Shown piece after piece: positions 32,206 through 45,023 of a stretch of DNA of 64,000 bases (position 1 is the first letter of the stretch; the number at the start of each line of letters is the position of its first letter). This DNA is from Woeseiaceae bacterium (lineage in GTDB: Bacteria > Pseudomonadota > Gammaproteobacteria > Steroidobacterales > Woeseiaceae): assembly GCA_030066075.1 (NCBI GenBank), contig JASJCH010000008.1, positions 1 to 64,000 of the forward strand, in the 5' to 3' direction. The translations under genes were made by a program, and so were the position numbers. The notes beneath the pieces were generated by a model. The model saw only the letters and a list, made by a program, of their open reading frames with translations. It was not told where the DNA came from and ran no database searches.

Positions 32206-32625
32206 CTAGCGGGCCGTCGTCCAGCAGTCGGTCTTGGGCTGCGAGGTCTGCGCGCCGCGCCCATCAACCGTAAACGAGCTGCACTTTGTCGCTTCGGAAC
32301 CGCCCTTTGTGTAGTTCGCCACCGCCGTAAAGTTACTGGCGTCGGGGGGCGGGTTGATCGTCACGTCGTACGAGCCGGTATCCGTGGTGATCGTATTACC
32401 GGCATAACCCAGTTCCGTCAGCGTCCCGTAGCGGTTGTTTTGCAGATAGAACCGCTCCTGGTTCTGGGCGATCTCCAGCAGGATAGCCTTGGCCTCGTTA
32501 CGCTGGGCGCGCGCGGCGAAATCGCGATAGTTCGGGTAGGCGATCGCGGCCATGATGCCGACGATGACCACCACGATCATCAGCTCCATCAGCGTGATGC
32601 CGCGCATGTACTTTTGCATCTGCAT
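32206..32625 (-). CDS. pilE: type IV minor pilin PilE
   Basis: MRGITLMELMIVVVIVGIMAAIAYPNYRDFAARAQRNEAKAILLEIAQNQERFYLQNNRYG. Confidence 0.9.
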   Translation of the reverse strand: MQMQKYMRGITLMELMIVVVIVGIMAAIAYPNYRDFAARAQRNEAKAILLEIAQNQERFYLQNNRYGTLTELGYAGNTITTDTGSYDVTINPPPDASNFTAVANYTKGGSEATKCSSFTVDGRGAQTSQPKTDCWTTAR

Positions 32626-32648
32626 AGCTCTTTCCTGTACGGGTTGCA

Positions 32649-35600
32649 TTAGTCTATACCATCCTGAGTCCACAGCGTCCGGACCGGAATGTTGTCAAAG
32701 TCCGGATCGAAACACTCTACGCCAACACAGGCCACCGGTCGCGTCTTGCACTCTTCGCCAATGCAGTCCGGGTCCCAGTGCGACGGGAACAGGAACACAG
32801 GCGCCGGTGCGATACCGCTCTGCTCGAGTTCGACAACGCGCGCACCGTCGATAACCTCCGGATCAGTGGTCTCCGTCGGTAGCGGTTCGCCGTCTGCCCA
32901 GACCGGGTCACCGTTCTGCACCGATACGCGATACAGACGGTTCGTGCTAAGACCCGCGCGGCACGGATCGGCAGCGTCGATCTCCGGCTGCAGCGTCACG
33001 AAGTAGATCAGGTCGTTGAACGTGCGAGAGTCCGAGAGCACCTTCTGCTTCTCGGGCAGGGCCAGCTTCCAGCCACGCCCGGATTCGGAAATGACGGTGT
33101 TGTACTCGCCCGCGACATCAACGAGATCATCATCCGTGATAATCGAGTAGCTGTTGTACTGCGCCTGGCTGAGAGGCGTCAGGACGTCCGGATCACGCAG
33201 CGAGTAGAAGCGGTCGGCCGCGCTGTTGTCGAGCGGGTGAGCGCGGTAACCGCTGCCGAGGCTGACCGACAGGTAGCGGCGTTGCTGCCGCTCGTCCGTG
33301 AACATCGCGACGTCGGGCGTCGTGTAGAAGCGGCGCGTTTCCGCAGCGCTCGGGCTGGTCAGGCCCTCGGCGCCGAGGCGGGCGATAACGCCGCCGGCGA
33401 CGAGATTAGACGGCTGTTTGTCGTAGCCGATGTCGAATCGCCAGACCTGTCCGCCGAGATCCGCCGCGTACATGCGGTTCGCGAAGCCATCGCCGGTCAG
33501 GTCGATGACGCTGATCCGGCTCGGGATCGCGCGCGTCATCTTGTCGTGCGACAGGTCCGCGTACGCATCCGCGCCGGCCCGCCACAGGACATCGCCGGAC
33601 TCTATATCCAGCATAAAGATGCCGGCGCCCTGCAGGTCGGGCGTATCCGGGTGCGCGGCGGTATCGTGCGTCGTGTCGTAACCACCGCCGACGATCAGTA
33701 CGGCGTCCTCGTCACTCACAACCTCGTTGCTGTCGATCTTGACGCGCGCCACGGAGGGCGTCGACCAGGTCTGGCCGAATTCCGGGAAGGTCCTGATCCA
33801 CTTCAGGCTCGGGCGCTCGGGGTTGGTCACGTCAAGCATGTAGTAACGGTCGCCGCCGCGCCGCATGCCGAAAACGACATAGACGAAGTCCGTGCCCACC
33901 TCGATCACACCGTCCTGGTTGAGGTCAGCGACGATGGGCACGACATCACCGTCAAGGCCGTAGTTCTTGTAGTCGACGTTGCGATTGAAGAACAGGTCCT
34001 TGAGGTTTGGCAAAAGAGTTTGGGGAACAAACGACCACAGCTCGCTGCCGCTGTCCGCATCGATCGCGTGGAGGTAACCGTCATTGGTGGCGCTGAAAAT
34101 GACGGTTCTCTGGGTGCCGCCGGCGGAGCCAAAAGCTACCGCGGCTGGCTGCGAGTGCAGCGAATCGCCCATTTGCATGCGCGCCGTCGTGTCGGGATCG
34201 TTGTCGTCATCCTTGACGTCCACGCCGCGGGCGAAATCGATCAGGTCCGCGATGCTGGGCTCGTCGTCGGCGCCCGTAAGGCCGAAGTCGTCCATGGTGT
34301 ACAGGCCCACGTTCGCGGCCGTGAGCGCATTGCCCGCCTGCGTCAGGTCGCCACCAATGTTGTTGGTGTATACGTTGCGGTCTTCGGGGTCAGGAAGCCT
34401 GCTGGCCGCGCCGCCCTCGTCGACGTTAGCGCCGTCAGCATCGGTGCCGTCTGTCCAGAAGTTCCTGGCGGTATCGGCAAAGAAGCCCGTGTTCGGATCC
34501 ACCGCGCTGCGGTCATCGGCGTCGCGAATCTCGTTCTCCTTGAGCTGGTACTTCTTCAGGTTACCGGGCCAGTACACCTCGTCCGTCGCGCGGAAGACCG
34601 ACACGTACAAGTCGTTGAGGTTCTGCGTGCGGTTGAACGTGTTGACCGCGACGGCCGGCGCCGTGAACGAGATGTCGCGATCGAAGATATCGGTCACGAT
34701 GTCGGTCAGGGCCGCCGTGAGTGATTTAACGTCCGACGCGAGATAGTACTCGCCGCCCGAGAGTTCAGCGGTGGACTTGAGGATCGGCAGGTCGACCGAG
34801 AAGCCGATCGTATAAGTCGTGACCGACTGGGTGCCCGGCACCAGCGGGTTGATATCGACCTTCGACAGGTATTCGGAGATGTCGTCAAGGCACGCGCCGT
34901 TCACGTCGCCGCCTGTGCAGTAGTTGCGGCCCATGACGTCGCCATACTCCGGCAGCGTCGGCGTCCTGCTGTAGGCGCCGCGGTCCCGGGTCGGCTCACC
35001 GTCGGTGAGCAGTACCACGAAGTTCTTGGAGCAGGCGTACTCCGCCGGCTGGTCATAGATCATCGGGTTGCTGCTGACCAGGGCGTCCGCATCCGTGTGC
35101 GTCGTGCCGCCGTATACGCCCGAGAGTCCCGACCAGTAGCGAGCGGCTTCGTACAGGGTCTCCGACAGCGGCGTCCAGCCACTGGCCGGAATAGCGTCGA
35201 CCACGGCATTGGCTTCGGCGCGATTGGCGTCCAGGTCCTTGACGGCGTGAATGACGGGGCCGCCTTCCTCGAAATGGAAGCGCATGAAGCCGACGTTGAC
35301 GTCCTTGATCGAGCCAAGGACGTTCTTCGTCACCGCTTTAACAATATCGGTACGGCGCATGCTCGAACCGGGGGGGTTGTAATACCAGTTGAGGTAGTTG
35401 CTGTCCCAGACCGTGATGATCCGGTGCGTCGGGGACGACCCCCAGTTGACGCTACGACGCGACTTGTCGTTATACATGGCGCGGTTCGTGCCGCGACGCG
35501 CATAAGTCTTGGGCGTCGGGGCGGAGTTCGAGCCGTGCACACCCGAGTCGGCCCGGCACTCGACCGGACTGTTCTGCAACGAGCGATACGGCTCGCGCCA

Positions 35601-36002
35601 GTAGGCGCGACCCTGGTAGCTGAAGTACATCGCCATCGTGTCGGTATAGGAACCCGAATCACGGGCCTGGTCCTTACCCTGCTCGCAGTAGAAGACGTCC
35701 TTCTTGAACTTGTACTGGTTGCCGCAATTCGGGATCGAATTGTTCGTCGACCAGTAGTACATGTCCGCGTCACACGGACCCGAGTAGGTCTCGGAGCCGT
35801 CGTAGGGTTCCTGGCTCTGTTCGACCGTTGTCATACTGCCCGACGAGTCGATGATGAACAGGATGTTCGGCTTGGCCGCGTTACCGGACTCCGGTGTCGA
35901 CAACAGGAGTTCAACGTCGTCGGCCCAGACCGGCGATGCGACCATCAGTGTGAGCAGCATTCCCGCTATTGCCCAAGCGGAGTGCAATCGGCACATAAAC
36001 AT
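32649..36002 (-). CDS. pilY1: type IV pilus tip-associated protein PilY1 (copy B)
   Basis: NILFIIDSSGSMTT VWA start; PilY1 beta-propeller VADLNQDGVIEVGTDFVYVVFGMRRGGDRYYMLDVTNP. Confidence 0.93.
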   Translation of the reverse strand: MFMCRLHSAWAIAGMLLTLMVASPVWADDVELLLSTPESGNAAKPNILFIIDSSGSMTTVEQSQEPYDGSETYSGPCDADMYYWSTNNSIPNCGNQYKFKKDVFYCEQGKDQARDSGSYTDTMAMYFSYQGRAYWREPYRSLQNSPVECRADSGVHGSNSAPTPKTYARRGTNRAMYNDKSRRSVNWGSSPTHRIITVWDSNYLNWYYNPPGSSMRRTDIVKAVTKNVLGSIKDVNVGFMRFHFEEGGPVIHAVKDLDANRAEANAVVDAIPASGWTPLSETLYEAARYWSGLSGVYGGTTHTDADALVSSNPMIYDQPAEYACSKNFVVLLTDGEPTRDRGAYSRTPTLPEYGDVMGRNYCTGGDVNGACLDDISEYLSKVDINPLVPGTQSVTTYTIGFSVDLPILKSTAELSGGEYYLASDVKSLTAALTDIVTDIFDRDISFTAPAVAVNTFNRTQNLNDLYVSVFRATDEVYWPGNLKKYQLKENEIRDADDRSAVDPNTGFFADTARNFWTDGTDADGANVDEGGAASRLPDPEDRNVYTNNIGGDLTQAGNALTAANVGLYTMDDFGLTGADDEPSIADLIDFARGVDVKDDDNDPDTTARMQMGDSLHSQPAAVAFGSAGGTQRTVIFSATNDGYLHAIDADSGSELWSFVPQTLLPNLKDLFFNRNVDYKNYGLDGDVVPIVADLNQDGVIEVGTDFVYVVFGMRRGGDRYYMLDVTNPERPSLKWIRTFPEFGQTWSTPSVARVKIDSNEVVSDEDAVLIVGGGYDTTHDTAAHPDTPDLQGAGIFMLDIESGDVLWRAGADAYADLSHDKMTRAIPSRISVIDLTGDGFANRMYAADLGGQVWRFDIGYDKQPSNLVAGGVIARLGAEGLTSPSAAETRRFYTTPDVAMFTDERQQRRYLSVSLGSGYRAHPLDNSAADRFYSLRDPDVLTPLSQAQYNSYSIITDDDLVDVAGEYNTVISESGRGWKLALPEKQKVLSDSRTFNDLIYFVTLQPEIDAADPCRAGLSTNRLYRVSVQNGDPVWADGEPLPTETTDPEVIDGARVVELEQSGIAPAPVFLFPSHWDPDCIGEECKTRPVACVGVECFDPDFDNIPVRTLWTQDGID

Positions 36003-36066
36003 GTGTCCTTACCTCTTTTATGTCAGTCCGTGACCTAATCGCTCACTCAGTCACATCACAGGTTAA

Positions 36067-36420
36067 CTACCTCGCAATATCAATACTCGTAACGACTTTT
36101 GTTGTTGTGTCTACGCTTAGCAGCGCGTAGCCGTCCTTGTCGTTCCTTGCCAGCGCGAATTCCTCCTGGAATTCTTCGAACTTCACGGCTGCGCCGCGGA
36201 CGGTGAACCTCGTCTCGGGGCTCAGCCGGGCGCGCTCGTAGTCCGCGTCACACTCATCGGCGCACGGTTTGTACGTCATCATGCCGCTCGTGGAAGCCGG
36301 CAGGATCATGTTGGACGGTGACAGCTCGACCGCCTGAACCAGCGTGACTATCTCGAAGTTGGCCGCGGTGGCCGGCGTTGCGAAAATGGCCATTGCCGCT
36401 GCAAATAATCGGATTCTCAT
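36067..36420 (-). CDS. small exported protein, paralog of 39871-40212
   Basis: Signal peptide MRIRLFAAAMAIFATPATA; motif GMMTYKPCADECDADYERARLS; located just upstream of pilY1 copy B. Confidence 0.75.
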   Translation of the reverse strand: MRIRLFAAAMAIFATPATAANFEIVTLVQAVELSPSNMILPASTSGMMTYKPCADECDADYERARLSPETRFTVRGAAVKFEEFQEEFALARNDKDGYALLSVDTTTKVVTSIDIAR

Positions 36421-36445
36421 CTTCCTTTCCTCCAATCCTAATCGG

Positions 36446-39400
36446 CTACTGGATGCCGTCCTGGGTCCAGAGCGTCCGCACCGGGTTGTTGTCGAAGCCC
36501 GGATCGTCGCACTCGACGCCAACACAGTAGATCGGCGGCGGCGAGCAAGCGGCGCCCGTGCAGTTCGCGTCAGGACTCGGGAACAGGAACCGCGGCGACG
36601 GTGCAATGCCGCCCTGCGCGAGGTCCTCGACACGCTCGTTGTCTTCCTGGCCGGGCACGATCTGGCTCAGGTCCGTGATCGGATCGCCGTTGACGACCGA
36701 CATGCGGTACAGGAAGTTCTTGCCGCCGCTGGCCGTGCAGGTTGCGGCGCCCGCGGCATCCGGCGAGAAGGCTACGAAGAAGATCTCGTTATTGAACGTA
36801 ACCGAGCTCGACAGCACCTTCTGATCCGCCGGCAGCGTGAACTTCCAGCCGGCCTGGTTCTGACCGATCGCCGTACCCGTCGAGCCGCTGACCTCGACCA
36901 GGTCGCCATCGGTATACGGTGAGAACGCGTCGTATTCGGCCTGCGTCATCGCGTTGAACACGTTGCGGTCGCGAACCGAGAAGAACCGATCGGTGTTCGT
37001 GTTATCGAGCGGATGCGCCCGGTAACCACTACCGATGCTGATGGCCATGAAGCGCCGGTTCTGAAGATTGTCGTTGAACATCGAGACGTCCGGCGACGTG
37101 TAGAAACGCCGCGTCTCGGCATCCGTCGGCGTGGCGAGACCTTCCGCACCGAGCTGGGCAATTACGCCACCAGTGACCAGCGCGTCGGTGCCGATACCGC
37201 CGGGGGCCTTGCCGTCGAAAACATCGAAACGCAGGAGCTGGCCGCCCATGTCTGACGCGTACATGCGGTCGACGAACGTGTCGCCATCAAGGTCGATAGC
37301 CTGCACCTGGCTGACGATCGAGCGAGTCATGCCAGGCAGCTGCAGGTCAGCGCCGTTATCGGCGCCGGCCCGCCAGAGCACGGCGCCCGACTCCAGGTCG
37401 AGCATGTAGATGCCAGCACCCTGTGCGTCCGCGGTTGCCGGGTGGCTGATCGTGTCGTGCTGGGTGTCGTAGCCGCCGCCGACAATGACGACAGCCTTGT
37501 CGGCATTGAGGCCATTGTCGTTCATGTCGACACGGGCGATCGTCGGCCGCGACCAGCTCTGGCCGAACTCGGCCTCCGACGCGCGCCACAGCACTTTCGG
37601 GCTGAACTTGTTGGTGACGTCCAGCGCATAGTAGCCGTTACCGCCGCGGCGCATGCCGAAGATGATGTAGACGAAGTCACCGTCGGCAACCTCTACGACA
37701 CCGTCATTGTCGCGGTCGGCCGTCACGGCCACGATGTCGCCGTCGATACCATACTGCTTGAACGATGAGTCCGGGTTGAAGAACAGGTTCGGCAGCTTCG
37801 GCAGGAACTCCTTCGGCATGAAGGACCACAACTCCTGGCCCGTGGACGCGTCCACCGCGTGCAGGTAACCGTCATTGGTCGCTGAATAAACGACGATGTC
37901 CGGGTTGGCCTGGGTTCCGCCGTAAACAACGGCAGCAGGCTGCGAGTGCAGCGGGTCGCCCATCTGGCGGCGAATGCTCGTGGTCGGGTCGAGGTCCACG
38001 TCCGTGATGTCCTCGCCGCGCGCAAACCGGATAAGCTGTTCGACAGTCGGCTCACCGGCTGCGCCGGTCATACCGAAGTCGGCCGGCGTGAACGCCATCA
38101 GGTTGGACGCAGACAGCGCGTTGGCGCCTGCCGTCAGGTCCGGGTCGGCCGAGTTATTGGTATAGAGATTACGCACGGACGGATCCGGGAGGTTCTCCCT
38201 GGCGCCGCCCAGCTTCACATCGTTGCCGTCGGCGCTCGAAGACCAGAAGCTCGTTGCCGTGTCCTGGAAGAGTCCCGACGCCGGGTTCACGGCCGGCACG
38301 CCGAACTTGTCGACCACGACACCATCATCGATGCGGTACTTCTTGAGGTTGCCCGGCCAGTGGTACTGCTCGCTGGCCGAGAACGTCGACAGGTACAGGT
38401 CGTTGAAGTTCTGCGTGCGGTTGAACGTGTTCACCGCAACGGCGGGGGCTGCGAACGACAGCGAGCGGTCCGTGATGTTGTTGACAATCTCGAGCAGCGC
38501 GAGCGTCAGGCTCTGAACGTCATCCGCCTGGAAGTACTCGCCGCCACCGCGGAGCGCGGCTTCCTGCAGGATCGGCAGGTCGATGGCGAAGCCGATCGTG
38601 TGCGTCGTGACGGTCTGCACGCCCGGCTCGTTCGGCGCGATATCGTCGTTGTAGAGGTAGGCCGCGATATCGTCCAGGCAGGCGCCGTTACCGGTGCCGG
38701 TGCAGCCGGAGTAGCCCTGCGTTGCGACCCAGTTGGGCAGATTGTCCACGAGCGTCGCGGGATCCGTATCCTCCGTGGGCGCGCCGTCGGTCAGCACCAC
38801 GTTGAAGTTCTTGGCGCAGGCCATGTTCGGCGGCGCCTGGTAGACGTCAGGCGACGTCGACGCCAGCGCCAGCGGGTCGGTCGTATGCTCGTTGATCAGG
38901 TTGTCGTAGTGCCCCGGGAGGCCGCGCCAGTAGTGAGCGGCTTCAAACAGGGTCTCCGACACCGGCGTCCAGCCACCGGCGTTGATGTTGTTGATCGTGG
39001 TGAGAATTTCCGCACGGTTTGTGTCCAGGTCCTTCATCGCCTGGATGACCGGGCCGCCCTGCGTATTGTTGAAGCGCATGACGCCAACGTTGATACCGCT
39101 GATCGAGTTCAGGATGGCGGTCGCCGTGTTGTTGACGATGTTAATGCGCGAGTCATCGATGAAGACCGGGTTCTGGATGTAGTTCAGGTAGTTGCCGTCA
39201 TACATCGTGACGTTCTGGTTGGTCGGCCACGATCCCCAGGCGACCTGGTCGTCCTTGTCGTCGGTAAAGGGATCCACGTCGCCGCCCTTTTGCGCGTATA
39301 CAGCAACGCCATCGGAGCCATCACCATGCTTGCCGCGGTCTTTCGAGCACTCGACGATGCTGGTCTCGTTGCCAGGCTGCAGGTTCTGCCAGCGCGCTTT

Positions 39401-39841
39401 TGACAGGCCGAGGAAGATGCTGAGGAAGCCCGAACCACCGGTGCGGTACTGGGCCATGCGGCCGTTGTAAATACCGATGCCCTGGATCTGCATGGATGCA
39501 TGGTCGCAGACGAATGCAGTTTTGAGGATGCGCTGGGTATTGGCCGGGTCGCAGCTCGGTACTGCCTTTTTAATCGTAGACCAGTACAGGTAGTTCGTAT
39601 CGCAGGCGTTCGCGCCGCCGACGTACGGAATCGAGGAGTCATAGACTTCGCGCGTCTGTTCCGTGTTGCCCATCGAGCCCGAGGAGTCGATGACCAGCAG
39701 CACGTTCGGAATGGACTGCGTGGCCGCATTCGGGTTCAGTAGCAGCAGCTCCGTATCGTCGGCATAGGCCGGCGTCCCGGTCGTCAGGACCAGTAACAGA
39801 CCGACGCACATCCATTTCGTCTTCTGAATTGCCTTATTCAT
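36446..39841 (-). CDS. pilY1: type IV pilus tip-associated protein PilY1 (copy A)
   Basis: NVLLVIDSSGSMGN; TADRDNDGVVEVADGDFVYIIFGMRRGGNGYYALDVTN; same C-terminal tail as copy B. Confidence 0.93.
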   Translation of the reverse strand: MNKAIQKTKWMCVGLLLVLTTGTPAYADDTELLLLNPNAATQSIPNVLLVIDSSGSMGNTEQTREVYDSSIPYVGGANACDTNYLYWSTIKKAVPSCDPANTQRILKTAFVCDHASMQIQGIGIYNGRMAQYRTGGSGFLSIFLGLSKARWQNLQPGNETSIVECSKDRGKHGDGSDGVAVYAQKGGDVDPFTDDKDDQVAWGSWPTNQNVTMYDGNYLNYIQNPVFIDDSRINIVNNTATAILNSISGINVGVMRFNNTQGGPVIQAMKDLDTNRAEILTTINNINAGGWTPVSETLFEAAHYWRGLPGHYDNLINEHTTDPLALASTSPDVYQAPPNMACAKNFNVVLTDGAPTEDTDPATLVDNLPNWVATQGYSGCTGTGNGACLDDIAAYLYNDDIAPNEPGVQTVTTHTIGFAIDLPILQEAALRGGGEYFQADDVQSLTLALLEIVNNITDRSLSFAAPAVAVNTFNRTQNFNDLYLSTFSASEQYHWPGNLKKYRIDDGVVVDKFGVPAVNPASGLFQDTATSFWSSSADGNDVKLGGARENLPDPSVRNLYTNNSADPDLTAGANALSASNLMAFTPADFGMTGAAGEPTVEQLIRFARGEDITDVDLDPTTSIRRQMGDPLHSQPAAVVYGGTQANPDIVVYSATNDGYLHAVDASTGQELWSFMPKEFLPKLPNLFFNPDSSFKQYGIDGDIVAVTADRDNDGVVEVADGDFVYIIFGMRRGGNGYYALDVTNKFSPKVLWRASEAEFGQSWSRPTIARVDMNDNGLNADKAVVIVGGGYDTQHDTISHPATADAQGAGIYMLDLESGAVLWRAGADNGADLQLPGMTRSIVSQVQAIDLDGDTFVDRMYASDMGGQLLRFDVFDGKAPGGIGTDALVTGGVIAQLGAEGLATPTDAETRRFYTSPDVSMFNDNLQNRRFMAISIGSGYRAHPLDNTNTDRFFSVRDRNVFNAMTQAEYDAFSPYTDGDLVEVSGSTGTAIGQNQAGWKFTLPADQKVLSSSVTFNNEIFFVAFSPDAAGAATCTASGGKNFLYRMSVVNGDPITDLSQIVPGQEDNERVEDLAQGGIAPSPRFLFPSPDANCTGAACSPPPIYCVGVECDDPGFDNNPVRTLWTQDGIQ

Positions 39842-39870
39842 GATTCTTCCCTCTTAATCCTGACGCTCTG

Positions 39871-40212
39871 CTACGGAATCAGAATCCAGACCTTGGTGAC
39901 CTGGTTCGATTCGAGGTGATGCAGTACCTGCACCGGGATATTCTGTGAGCGATCGACACCTGCAAGCGCACGGCGGAACTTCTCGAGCGACATCCGCTGG
40001 CCGTTGAACTCATAGACCGTTCCCTCGCTAACGCGCCGGGTCTGGTAATCGCAGTCGTCACACTCTTTAAAGCCAATAGTGCCGACTTCGCTTTGCGGTA
40101 GCCGCACATCGCTGATCCGGACTTCGTAAGCCTCGGCGATCGTCTTGAACTGTGCCGCGGCCGTCAACGAGAGGCTGAGCAGGAGGGCGGTAATTATCAT
40201 CTTGATCTTCAT
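39871..40212 (-). CDS. small exported protein, paralog of 36067-36420
   Basis: Signal peptide MKIKMIITALLLSLSLTAAA; motif GTIGFKECDDCDYQTRRVS; located just upstream of pilY1 copy A. Confidence 0.78.
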   Translation of the reverse strand: MKIKMIITALLLSLSLTAAAQFKTIAEAYEVRISDVRLPQSEVGTIGFKECDDCDYQTRRVSEGTVYEFNGQRMSLEKFRRALAGVDRSQNIPVQVLHHLESNQVTKVWILIP

Positions 40213-40237: not shown

Positions 40238-40723
40238 TTACGGTGCGGTGGGCACTATCTCATTCCGGGTAGGCCCGACAATGTAGAAAGCCTGGGTATG
40301 GGTTGCCAGGGAATCGCGATCGGTCTCCGAACCGGGGGCACGCCGCGACTCTGCGCTGGCCGTCGCGAGAAAGTGATAGGCAACGATGCCGCTGCCTGAG
40401 CCCAGGCTGAATGCCTTGTCCGGCACAATCGTGGGCGGATTCTCGGGCTGAATCTGAGCGGTCACCTTGTCATTGGAATTGATGATGTAGGTGACGTCTG
40501 GCATGCCGGCGGGATTGAACGAACCCAGCCCCAGCACCTGCTCGAGGCCGGTCTCTGCCGCCTGGAATGCGTTCTCGTAGTTCTGGTCGTTGCGCGCCAT
40601 CGCGAGTTCGGTCGTCGCCGTGTTCATGCCGGAGATCGCCAGCACCGAGATGACGACGAGCAGGATCAGCCCGACGACGAGCGCGGCGCCCTTTTGATTC
40701 TTATGGAATCGCATGGTTTTCAT
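40238..40723 (-). CDS. pilX: pilus assembly protein PilX
   Basis: NQKGAALVVGLILLVVISVLAISGMNTATTELAMARNDQNYENAFQAAETGLEQ. Confidence 0.88.
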   Translation of the reverse strand: MKTMRFHKNQKGAALVVGLILLVVISVLAISGMNTATTELAMARNDQNYENAFQAAETGLEQVLGLGSFNPAGMPDVTYIINSNDKVTAQIQPENPPTIVPDKAFSLGSGSGIVAYHFLATASAESRRAPGSETDRDSLATHTQAFYIVGPTRNEIVPTAP

Positions 40724-40724
40724 A

Positions 40725-41711
40725 TCAGGTCCTCGCGTTGCGCAGCAGGATCGTCTTCGATACCTGCATGCGGCGGAATCCGTCGTTATAGGTGCCGAGG
40801 TCGACGTCACCCGGCTCGTAATCGCGGTTGTCGACGATGCCGACCTCCGGGGCCAGGCCGCGGACGACCAGCCATACCCGCGCCGTCATGATGCGCGCCC
40901 CCGGGATGTAGCCGGGAGCCTCCGGGTCATACACTTCGTCGCCCGGGTTGACGTAACGGTCAACGGTGTTGTCCTCGTTCGTGTCCACGCCGAACTGGAT
41001 CTGCAGGTTCTCGACGCCCGGTGCAATCTCCTGGTCGACGATAACCGGCGCGCCGCCTGCCGCCATCAGGGTCTTGCGCCGCAGCGTGGGCGTGCCGGGA
41101 ATCAGCGGCGAATCGTCAGCCACGTAATAAGTGTTGACGATCAGGTTGTGGGTCGACGAGCCGTCGGCCGCCGAAAACGGCGGGGGCACCGCGCCGTCGG
41201 CAAATGCAGCGCCCTGGATGCGCGACGTCTGAATCTGCAGGCGCCCGGCTTCGAGCGCCACCGCCTCGACCGTGGCCCGGCGGACTGTGAAGTGGTCAGA
41301 GTTGCCCTGCGCGGCGGGTTGCGCAGCGCACAGCAGGTTGTAATCGTTGTTCTCGCCGTCGACCGTCATCGCGAAGTCGAGGGCCCAGCCGTCGCCGCAG
41401 TCAGCCGGCTCCGGCAGCCCGGCAGGATTGGCGTCGCCGATGACACTGCGCCCTTCGATGGCCAGCGGCCGGCTCGTGCGGCCCCAGTTGCTCGCCATGC
41501 GCAGGTCCGCCTCGATCGTGTCCATCGCAAACTGCGCGGTCTCCTGGACCCGGGCGATGGATTCGTTGACGACGAACGCCTGGCGGCTCTGGTTGTAGAT
41601 CTGGACGGCGCCGATGATCAGGAATGACCCGATCGCGAGCGCGACGAGCAATTCAACCAGGGTCAGGCCAGTCTGTCGCTGCATGTCGTTGATTCGCTGT
41701 TCCATCATCAA
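40725..41711 (-). CDS. pilW: minor pilin PilW
   Basis: RQTGLTLVELLVALAIGSFLIIGAVQIYNQSRQAFVVNESIARVQETAQFAMDTIEADLRMA. Confidence 0.92.
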   Translation of the reverse strand: MMMEQRINDMQRQTGLTLVELLVALAIGSFLIIGAVQIYNQSRQAFVVNESIARVQETAQFAMDTIEADLRMASNWGRTSRPLAIEGRSVIGDANPAGLPEPADCGDGWALDFAMTVDGENNDYNLLCAAQPAAQGNSDHFTVRRATVEAVALEAGRLQIQTSRIQGAAFADGAVPPPFSAADGSSTHNLIVNTYYVADDSPLIPGTPTLRRKTLMAAGGAPVIVDQEIAPGVENLQIQFGVDTNEDNTVDRYVNPGDEVYDPEAPGYIPGARIMTARVWLVVRGLAPEVGIVDNRDYEPGDVDLGTYNDGFRRMQVSKTILLRNART

Positions 41712-42175
41712 ATACCCAGTACCGGAATCGTGATCTCGTAGTTCAGAGGCGCGTTCGGGTCCTCGCCCGGCTCGTCCCAGTCGATGCGGATGGTGTACTC
41801 GGGAGGAAGAACCGTGTCGTCGAAAGTCACCGTGACGGTGCCATTCGGCAGCGACTCGTCAACCTGTGCGTCCCACAGGAAAATGTCGTTGGCGGCCATT
41901 TCCGCCTCATTGCAGTCGATTCCCGCGCCAACACAGCCGTTGTCGGCCGGCTGGCCCTGGTAAGCGATGCCGGCGCGCGGATTCGCGCGAATACGGTCCG
42001 CTACGTCGCCTGCCATCGTTACTGCCTGGTGGCGGAACATCGAGGTGCGTCCCGCCTGCATGCTCTGCACGAACAGTGTGGCGATGCCCAGCATGCCAAC
42101 CGACATAATGATCAGCGCGATCAGCACTTCGACGAGCGAGAAGCCGCGCTGCTGTTTTCGTGAGTTGATCAACAT
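41708..42175 (-). CDS. pilV: minor pilin PilV
   Basis: QRGFSLVEVLIALIIMSVGMLGIATLFVQSMQAGRTSMFRHQAVTMAGDVADRIRAN. Confidence 0.92.
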   Translation of the reverse strand: MLINSRKQQRGFSLVEVLIALIIMSVGMLGIATLFVQSMQAGRTSMFRHQAVTMAGDVADRIRANPRAGIAYQGQPADNGCVGAGIDCNEAEMAANDIFLWDAQVDESLPNGTVTVTFDDTVLPPEYTIRIDWDEPGEDPNAPLNYEITIPVLGI

Positions 42176-42200: not shown

Positions 42201-42806
42201 TTACGGGCAGGTTGCACCCATGTTGCCCAGTGCGGTGCCGATCAGGGCCTTGTCCCGCAGAATCGTCGCGCGGCCGAGCGGCGTGGCGACGAACAACCGT
42301 GCCGCCGAGTTGCCGCCGGCGGCGGTGATATTGCCGCGGTCGTCGCACATGACGACCTGCGTCAGCGCCGGGTTGCCGCCTACGTCCCCGCGGCCGAGGC
42401 CGGTGGACGCATAGCTGAAGAAGGTGGCGTTGTTGGCGACGGCCAGGATGATTTCGTCATCGAGCGGGCCGTGCGCCCGCAGCACCGTCTCGTCCGCCCC
42501 GGCGCGGGCGATATCGCCATTGTCATCGAGAAAGACGATGAAGCCCTGCTCCCAGGTGCCGCCGCAGTCAGCGTTGCCGGCAAACGGGTCGGCGCTTGCG
42601 CAAATCGTGATATTGGTCTTCGCGCGTGCCGCCTCCGAGCGCGCCAGCTGGAAGGCCGCGTGCAGATCGTTGGCGGCGCCGGTCAGTCGGCTGTTGGCCG
42701 AGAATTCCGACAGGTTGGGGATGCCGAGCGACAGGATGACGCCCACCACCAGCAACGTGATCAGCAATTCGTAAAGCGTGAAGCCGTTTTGGAGTCGTTT
42801 CTTCAT
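42201..42806 (-). CDS. FimT/GspH-like minor pilin (copy 2)
   Basis: QNGFTLYELLITLLVVGVILSLGIPNLSEFSANSRLTGAANDLHAAFQLARSEAARA. Confidence 0.88.
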   Translation of the reverse strand: MKKRLQNGFTLYELLITLLVVGVILSLGIPNLSEFSANSRLTGAANDLHAAFQLARSEAARAKTNITICASADPFAGNADCGGTWEQGFIVFLDDNGDIARAGADETVLRAHGPLDDEIILAVANNATFFSYASTGLGRGDVGGNPALTQVVMCDDRGNITAAGGNSAARLFVATPLGRATILRDKALIGTALGNMGATCP

Positions 42807-42904: not shown

Positions 42905-43438
42905 TTAATCCGCGCAGGAATAGGGTTGGCCACGAGGATCCTCCTCGGCGGCCCGCGGCCGGCCGGTGTAGCTGACCACGAGGGCCAACGGATCGGCGCG
43001 CCCTGCCACGTCGCAAAACACCAGGGTGCCGTTGGTCGCCCGCTTCTGGGTGGCCCGCAGGGAGAAGCCGCGGCGGTTGGCGACGATACGCACACTCTCG
43101 TGCACCCGGTGGGTCTGCAGCAGCGGCTCGTCCGGGTCGCGGCGCGGTGGCTCGTCGCGATCGCTGTTTTCGAACATCAGCCAGCCCGCGGACCAGTCGC
43201 GCCCGGGTTCGCAGTGCAGTCCGTCGCGGCTGGGGCACAGCGAAACGACGCGTCGGCGCATGATGGATTCCTTGCGCGCCAGGTGTATGGCGTGAAACAG
43301 CGCGTTGACCTCGACGCGCATTTTCGAGCGGGCCAGCATGCTGCCGAAAGAGGGCAGGCCGAGACCCGCGATGAGGGCAACGAGCGTGAATGTCATGAGT
43401 AGCTCGTAGAGTGTGTAACCCAGCCATTTGCGGCGCAT
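42905..43438 (-). CDS. FimT/GspH-like minor pilin (copy 1)
   Basis: LGYTLYELLMTFTLVALIAGLGLPSFGSMLARSKMRVEVNALFHAIHLARKESI. Confidence 0.85.
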   Translation of the reverse strand: MRRKWLGYTLYELLMTFTLVALIAGLGLPSFGSMLARSKMRVEVNALFHAIHLARKESIMRRRVVSLCPSRDGLHCEPGRDWSAGWLMFENSDRDEPPRRDPDEPLLQTHRVHESVRIVANRRGFSLRATQKRATNGTLVFCDVAGRADPLALVVSYTGRPRAAEEDPRGQPYSCAD

Positions 43439-44093: not shown

Positions 44094-45023
44094 TCAGAAA
44101 CGGTAGTCCGGGTTCTCCGGATCGAAGTCGAGATCCGTCAGGCCGACATTGAGTCGCACGTCCCGGTAGACGTAGCGCTCGTAGAGTTGGTCCTGCGCGT
44201 CGAAGATCTCGATCCGCGCTGGCAGCAGGCTGTCGGGTGCTACCCAGACGCTGCCCCGGGCCGAGTAATAGCGGGGAATGAACAAGCGCTGACCGGTCTT
44301 CAGCTTGCGCGGGCCCCTGACGTCCGGGTTCGCGTACCAGACGACATACATCGGCCGGCCATGGGACTCGGCGATCGACCACAGGCTCTCGCCGGCGACG
44401 ACTTCGTGCGTATCCCCAACGCCCGTCGGGAATGAAAAGTCCAGCCGTAACAGGCAGGCATTGGCGGCATCGCAGTCTTCCTCCACGCGAATTTCACCCT
44501 CGCCGTTGTCCACGGCCCTGCGCACGTTACTTGCGATCCTGTCGATGGTTGCTCCGATACTGGCGTCTGTGGCGGTCTGGTGCTGCCACTCGCCGAGCAT
44601 CGGGTCATCCAGGCGAAACTCCGTCGGCACGACTTTCCGCAGAATAACGGTCGCCTGGAGGAACCGCGCCAGGCCACCTTTAAACCCGCCGGCGTGGGCG
44701 ACCGCGAGCTCCGAGCCTTCCCGGGCCGGGAAGATCAACTCGCCGCCCTTGTTCGGGCCCTCGAGGACCGTCATGTAGTACTGCTCGGGCTGCCGGAACT
44801 TGACGAAGACGGTTTGCTCGGTGACGTCGCCGTTGACCAGCCGCTCGCTCTTGTCGACCAGCTTGGTGTAGTCGTCGACTGCGGACCACGCCTCTTCCAT
44901 ACCGGCCAGCAGCGCCAACGCTTCCTCGAAGGCCGCCCCGGCGGCATGGGCAGGCGCGGCGAGGCCCTGCCACAGCAGGGCCAGGCTCAAGAGAGTGGTT
45001 GCGCAAGTAGTCCTGAACCGCAT
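44094..45023 (-). CDS. exported DUF1571-like protein with embedded LysM domain
   Basis: Signal peptide; VFVKFRQPEQYYMTVLEGPNKGGELIFPAREGS; internal LysM DTHEVVAGESLWSIAESHGRPMYVVWYANPDVRGPRKLKTGQRLFIPRY. Confidence 0.75.
   Translation of the reverse strand: MRFRTTCATTLLSLALLWQGLAAPAHAAGAAFEEALALLAGMEEAWSAVDDYTKLVDKSERLVNGDVTEQTVFVKFRQPEQYYMTVLEGPNKGGELIFPAREGSELAVAHAGGFKGGLARFLQATVILRKVVPTEFRLDDPMLGEWQHQTATDASIGATIDRIASNVRRAVDNGEGEIRVEEDCDAANACLLRLDFSFPTGVGDTHEVVAGESLWSIAESHGRPMYVVWYANPDVRGPRKLKTGQRLFIPRYYSARGSVWVAPDSLLPARIEIFDAQDQLYERYVYRDVRLNVGLTDLDFDPENPDYRF

Follow-up and report, generated by a model that had tools for sequence, protein, structure and literature searches.

Layout of the operon

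The stretch of DNA analysed here, referred to as the window, covers 64,000 nucleotides (nt) of a Woeseiaceae bacterium from the Gammaproteobacteria (GenBank assembly GCA_030066075.1, contig JASJCH010000008.1, positions 1 to 64,000). Its minus strand carries a complete operon of the minor-pilin type, fimT-fimU-pilV-pilW-pilX-S1-pilY1-S2-pilY1-pilE, and both pilY1 genes lie inside it (Table 1). PilY1 is the tip protein of the type IVa pilus. An earlier note, made from the sequence alone, had described two tandem pilY1 genes, each preceded by a gene for a signal-peptide protein of about 115 residues; the coordinates, the lengths (113 residues for S1 and 117 for S2) and the signal peptides were all confirmed. 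The genomic comparisons presented below give good support to a partnership between these small proteins and PilY1.

The genes of the two modules are separated by 25 nt (pilX to S1), 29 nt (S1 to PilY1-1), 25 nt (PilY1-1 to S2) and 64 nt (S2 to PilY1-2). PilY1-1 and PilY1-2 are 50% identical over their full length; the C-terminal beta-propeller domain of PilY1 (PF05567) scores 39.3 bits in the former, over the cut-off, and 21.7 bits in the latter, below it. The N-terminal vWA motif DxSxS is present in both as DSSGS at residue 52, with Pfam VWA matches below the cut-off. A full-length structural model of PilY1-1 was too poor for use (mean predicted local distance difference test score, pLDDT, 56.6). 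The start codon of the PilE-type pilin probably lies near 32625, inside a listed frame that opens further upstream, and 3′ of this gene a G+C-rich stem followed by a T run can be read from the sequence. A promoter scan returned a single weak site on the opposite strand and was uninformative. Upstream of the operon, a gene at 44097-45023 (minus strand) encodes a DUF1571 plus LysM protein.

Table 1. Genes of the minor-pilin operon, in order of transcription.
Feature	Coordinates	Strand	Evidence
Minor prepilin, FimT/FimU type (GspH domain)	42905..43438	-	PF12019, E 5e-13
Minor prepilin, FimU type (GspH domain)	42201..42806	-	PF12019, E 9e-14
pilV minor prepilin	41708..42175	-	TIGR02523, E 9e-21, over cut-off
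pilW minor prepilin	40725..41702	-	PF16074, E 1e-18
pilX minor prepilin	40238..40723	-	PF14341, E 1e-16
S1, small exported CxxC protein, 113 residues, upstream module	39871..40212	-	Sequence, homology to S2, AlphaFold model
PilY1-1, 1131 residues, partner of S1	36446..39841	-	PF05567, E 5e-10, over cut-off
S2, small exported CxxxC protein, 117 residues, downstream module	36067..36420	-	Sequence, homology to S1
PilY1-2, 1117 residues, partner of S2	32649..36002	-	50% identity to PilY1-1; PF05567, E 1e-4, below cut-off
PilE-type pilin, last operon gene	32206..32670 (listed frame)	-	PF16732, E 3e-18

A small-protein family encoded beside pilY1

S1 and S2 each have an ordinary signal peptide and lack a lipobox. 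Their relationship, which the earlier note had read from shared motifs, is firm in statistical alignment: BLASTP gave 30% identity across 89 residues (E 2e-9, as a single comparison), and profiles of S1-type and S2-type orthologues matched with a probability of 99.8 (P 1.8e-29). Pfam scans of S1, S2 and 20 relatives found nothing above chance, as did scans of seven distant members; neither NCBIfam nor the sequences of the PDB gave a match to the small proteins, and no description of the gene was found in the literature. Judged by these sequence comparisons, S1 and S2 are members of one undescribed family. The two-cysteine motif recognized earlier is real, and both cysteines are kept in all members seen: the mature protein has exactly two cysteines in almost all members, spaced as CxxC in S1-type and most distant members, as CxxxC in most S2-type proteins, and as Cx4C or Cx5C in a few. 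The haem motif CxxCH was found in none of 71 family members. An AlphaFold model built on 21 natural sequences (mean pLDDT 89.6, rising to about 96 for the greater part of the mature protein) predicts the order strand-strand-strand-helix-strand-strand and places the cysteine pair in the loop that joins strands 2 and 3. Foldseek searches of the PDB with this model returned mostly OB-type domains, and the small protein is thus predicted to be an OB-like barrel; because the matches had E values of at least 0.05 and template modelling scores of at most 0.41, the likeness is one of fold class, not of homology.

Within the Woeseiaceae-type family of bacteria, the small protein was found in 73 of 107 genomes with S2 as query and in 77 with S1. 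In 60 of 61 loci read, pilY1 starts between -4 and 119 nt downstream of the small gene; the remaining locus is a contig end. A two-sided count set 101 small-gene loci from 77 genomes against the PilY1 hits: of the 94 PilY1s of this type with a complete N-terminus, 93 are directly preceded by the small gene, and the one without it is a distant PilY1. No PilY1 was listed alongside seven small-gene loci, five of which are accounted for: direct reading shows a PilY1 at three, another is cut by a contig end, and at the fifth the PilY1 match starts further in. The tandem arrangement is not private to the window genome, as both modules occur on one contig, 3804-3970 bp apart, in that genome and in 17 relatives (18 genomes). 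Many of these genomes contain, in addition, another minor-pilin operon whose PilY1 is distant and which lacks the small gene; there, pilX and pilY1 are only 22-29 nt apart in five of six cases read. This second operon serves as an internal control, and the small gene is therefore not a companion of every pilY1. The PilY1s of the second operons (L124-L129) are about 33-39% identical, and several of these operons lie a few kb away on the opposite strand. In one genome of the same genus (G021), a third set of pilus-tip genes has the order pilY1-PilY2-pilE, and the PilY1 it encodes is very different (L139:6685-11104).

The linkage extends well beyond this family. When the small-protein model by itself was run against 370 genomes of the class, 19 of them, from 17 genera, had matches; 299 genomes drawn from the phylum contributed one more, from the same class. 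All distant matches, including those of an earlier model, adjoin pilY1, with the exception of L077, a cytochrome c with a CxxCH motif that was dropped as false. Distant members with the same cysteine pair stand beside pilY1 in about 15 further gammaproteobacterial families, and the homologues are thus not scattered away from pilY1, either within the family or outside it. Full operons read in ten other families have the order pilX-small-pilY1 in nine, in the context fimU-pilV-pilW-pilX-small-pilY1-pilE, and pilY1-small in one; of the nine, one belongs to the same order and is the closest outgroup. L065 and L066, which lie on short contigs of genomes placed in other families, are almost identical to the Woeseiaceae small protein; they may reflect binning contamination and were left out of the count of distant families. 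In G374 the small gene follows pilY1 in two separate operons (L130:6237-6587 and L131:5934-6293), and the L131 copy stands exactly between pilY1 and pilE, the position of PilY2. Two close pilY1 genes without a small gene were also seen in other gammaproteobacteria, as adjacent genes 196 nt apart (L186:825-7463) and as two pilX-pilY1 units (L180:706-8185).

Duplication of the module and the type of PilY1 that carries it

Trees were built for 64 PilY1s and for their 64 small partners. In both, one clade holds the downstream modules together with one single module, and another holds the upstream modules and almost all of the single ones; a genome from the same order has a single module that falls outside both clades in both trees. 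Support for the clades in the Shimodaira-Hasegawa-like approximate likelihood ratio test is 99/93 for PilY1 and 81/85 for the small protein, which offers few columns. Both trees are most simply explained if the complete two-gene module was duplicated once, close to the root of the family, and its downstream copy was then lost repeatedly; the tandem is therefore not a recent feature of the window genome.

The two pairs have also diverged as pairs. Across 16 genomes with two modules, distances of S1 correlated with those of PilY1-1 at 0.82 and with those of PilY1-2 at 0.24, and distances of S2 correlated with those of PilY1-2 at 0.66 and with those of PilY1-1 at 0.21. Partial Mantel tests gave p 0.0005 for each cognate pair, and the result holds in the 14 genomes that remain without near duplicates. 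Physical distance does not explain the pairing of S2 with PilY1-2, since S2 lies closer to PilY1-1, and its correlation with the adjacent C-terminal stretch of PilY1-1 was only 0.09. The earlier proposal that the module was copied as a unit is thus borne out by the matching trees and by the cognate co-divergence. Either the pairs are co-adapted or they were exchanged only as pairs, and under either view the pair is the unit. One copying of the unit in this lineage of marine sediments, followed by the evolution of two matched pairs, points to a dedicated PilY1 helper.

Which PilY1s have such a companion was examined in a PilY1-first sample of 48 pilY1 genes from outside the family with enough upstream sequence. 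The small gene was linked to 13 of them, upstream in 11 and downstream in two. Against the N-terminal domain of the window PilY1, none of the 13 scores below 50 bits; scores of at least 77 were reached by 11 of the 13 and by two of the 35 others (Fisher p 2e-7, without phylogenetic correction). The small gene is missing beside PilY1s whose propellers are just as similar and whose N-terminus differs. Cysteines aligned with C112 and C165 (PilY1-1 numbering) occur in 23 of 23 small-linked PilY1s vs. 10 of 35 others, and C80 occurs in 16 of 23 vs. none of 35. Because PilY1 similarity guided the choice of this sample, and some of its operons had also come up in the search with the small protein, these counts describe a trend, not a rate: presence of the small gene tracks the type of N-terminal (vWA) domain that PilY1 has. 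Among operons with a small gene, the most divergent (L133:1965-6562, G688) encodes a 1383-residue PilY1 whose N-terminus is unlike that of the window PilY1s, with the small gene in its usual position.

Possible role of the small proteins

We consider it fairly probable (roughly 60%) that the small family is a dedicated periplasmic accessory factor that folds or stabilizes one structural type of PilY1, kept in cognate pairs that stem from a single duplication of the unit. Each small protein would be made with its own PilY1 from the same operon, would most likely bind it in the periplasm, and would help to fold, oxidize or keep stable a part of PilY1 until it enters the minor-pilin priming complex. 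As the target within PilY1, the cysteine-rich N-terminal vWA domain is the first candidate; a role in folding or holding this domain fits both the pattern of presence and the pattern of cysteines. Cysteines of the vWA domain of Pseudomonas aeruginosa PilY1 have been proposed to matter for its function in surface sensing (PMC9210963). The cysteine pair of the small protein itself probably forms an internal disulfide. After divergence, the outcome would be two PilY1 variants with matched helpers and one minor-pilin set, and we hypothesize that the two PilY1s act as alternative tips. The earlier note had proposed an undescribed PilY1 partner acting in folding, export or at the tip: an undescribed, PilY1-linked family it is, for which folding, export and a place at the tip would each be candidate functions.

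In gene position and in logic, the nearest precedent is TfcP of Myxococcus xanthus, a periplasmic protein encoded immediately upstream of pilY1.1 and needed for the stability of PilY1.1 at low calcium (PMC8833165, PMC13190605). Both genes stand directly 5′ of one pilY1. However, TfcP is a cytochrome c with haem, whereas the small family lacks CxxCH and has a predicted OB-like fold; identity with TfcP, or with a haem protein generally, was rejected on the absence of that motif. TfpY-like pilin accessory proteins are described as promoting pilus assembly without entering the pilus (PMC11841053), a likeness at the level of an accessory role. Genomes with several PilY1-type tip proteins are also on record, with PilC1/PilC2 in Neisseria and PilY1.1-1.3 in M. 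xanthus (PMC13190605). In contrast to these, the copies described here form a tandem within a single operon, where each has a small partner of its own, and share a minor-pilin set.

The main alternative, which we regard as unlikely, is that the small protein remains on PilY1 in the assembled pilus as a structural component of the tip, for example as an edge-strand cap or an extension of the adhesive surface. Export, a gene beside pilY1 and the co-divergence of matched pairs would all agree with this, and the OB-like barrel of the model is a common binding fold. However, the small protein has no prepilin leader, so it could be attached at the tip only via PilY1 or a minor pilin. Identity with PilY2, or descent from a strongly diverged PilY2-family member in a shifted operon slot, is improbable. 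PilY2 (PF14481), a second precedent that is needed for pilus formation in P. aeruginosa and encoded in its fimU-pilVWXY1Y2E operon (PMC2680260), is likewise a small exported non-pilin of similar size class that adjoins pilY1 in a minor-pilin operon. The small gene occupies the PilY2 slot, between pilY1 and pilE, in L131 and also follows pilY1 in L130, and PilY2 and the small gene never share an operon in the sample (the small gene was in none of four PilY2-bearing operons). Yet the PilY2 gene is downstream of pilY1, whereas the small gene is upstream in nearly all cases, those two loci being the exceptions; PilY2s lack the cysteine pair and go with other PilY1 types, and a true PilY2 stands at another pilY1 in a relative (L139). 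None of 22 small-family members matched PF14481 at E values up to 10, and profile comparison (hhalign) with nine PilY2 sequences gave a probability of 9%, or 0.8% for the mature parts, vs. 98.8% between near and distant members of the small family. PilY2 identity was rejected on these negative family scans and profile comparisons.

The conserved cysteine pair, and the greater number of N-terminal cysteines in small-linked PilY1s, could be taken to suggest a thiol-disulfide catalyst dedicated to PilY1 oxidation. Spacing that ranges from CxxC to Cx5C and a predicted fold that is not thioredoxin-like are both unusual for a catalytic pair, and favour a structural disulfide over a classical redox catalyst; the catalytic role is very improbable. 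Also very improbable is mere gene linkage, with the small gene as a passenger in the pilY1 cassette that acts elsewhere, for example in regulation. Joint transfer can give adjacent genes a common history, but S2, 25 nt from PilY1-1 and 64 nt from PilY1-2, nevertheless tracks PilY1-2, and the linkage is kept across many families.

Several observations weigh against the dedicated-helper reading. Linked inheritance of the cassette could account for some of the cognate signal. Genome G374 has the order pilY1-small in both of its operons, and a few PilY1s of the N-domain type (L166, L183) are without the small gene. Correlation of small-protein distances with the N-domain was not above that with the propeller (partial r 0.02, p 0.39), and since the distance correlations show no excess, it is the presence and absence of the gene, in counts uncorrected for phylogeny, that point to the N-domain as target.

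PilY1 governs pilus assembly, adhesion and surface sensing, and little is known of how this large cysteine-rich protein is folded and handled in the periplasm. A conserved helper specific to one PilY1 type and governed by a clear cognate code would open a direct way into PilY1 folding and handling, and swaps between the natural duplicate pairs offer a simple test of partner specificity. Many so far unannotated genes of type IV pilus operons also gain a name through this family. More tentatively, the small proteins may belong to an unnamed class of cognate PilY1 chaperones or tip subunits across the Gammaproteobacteria, with one helper per PilY1 type, of which PilY2, TfcP and the small family would be three unrelated solutions; the duplicated module might then equip one minor-pilin base with two PilY1 tips and matched, non-interchangeable helpers.
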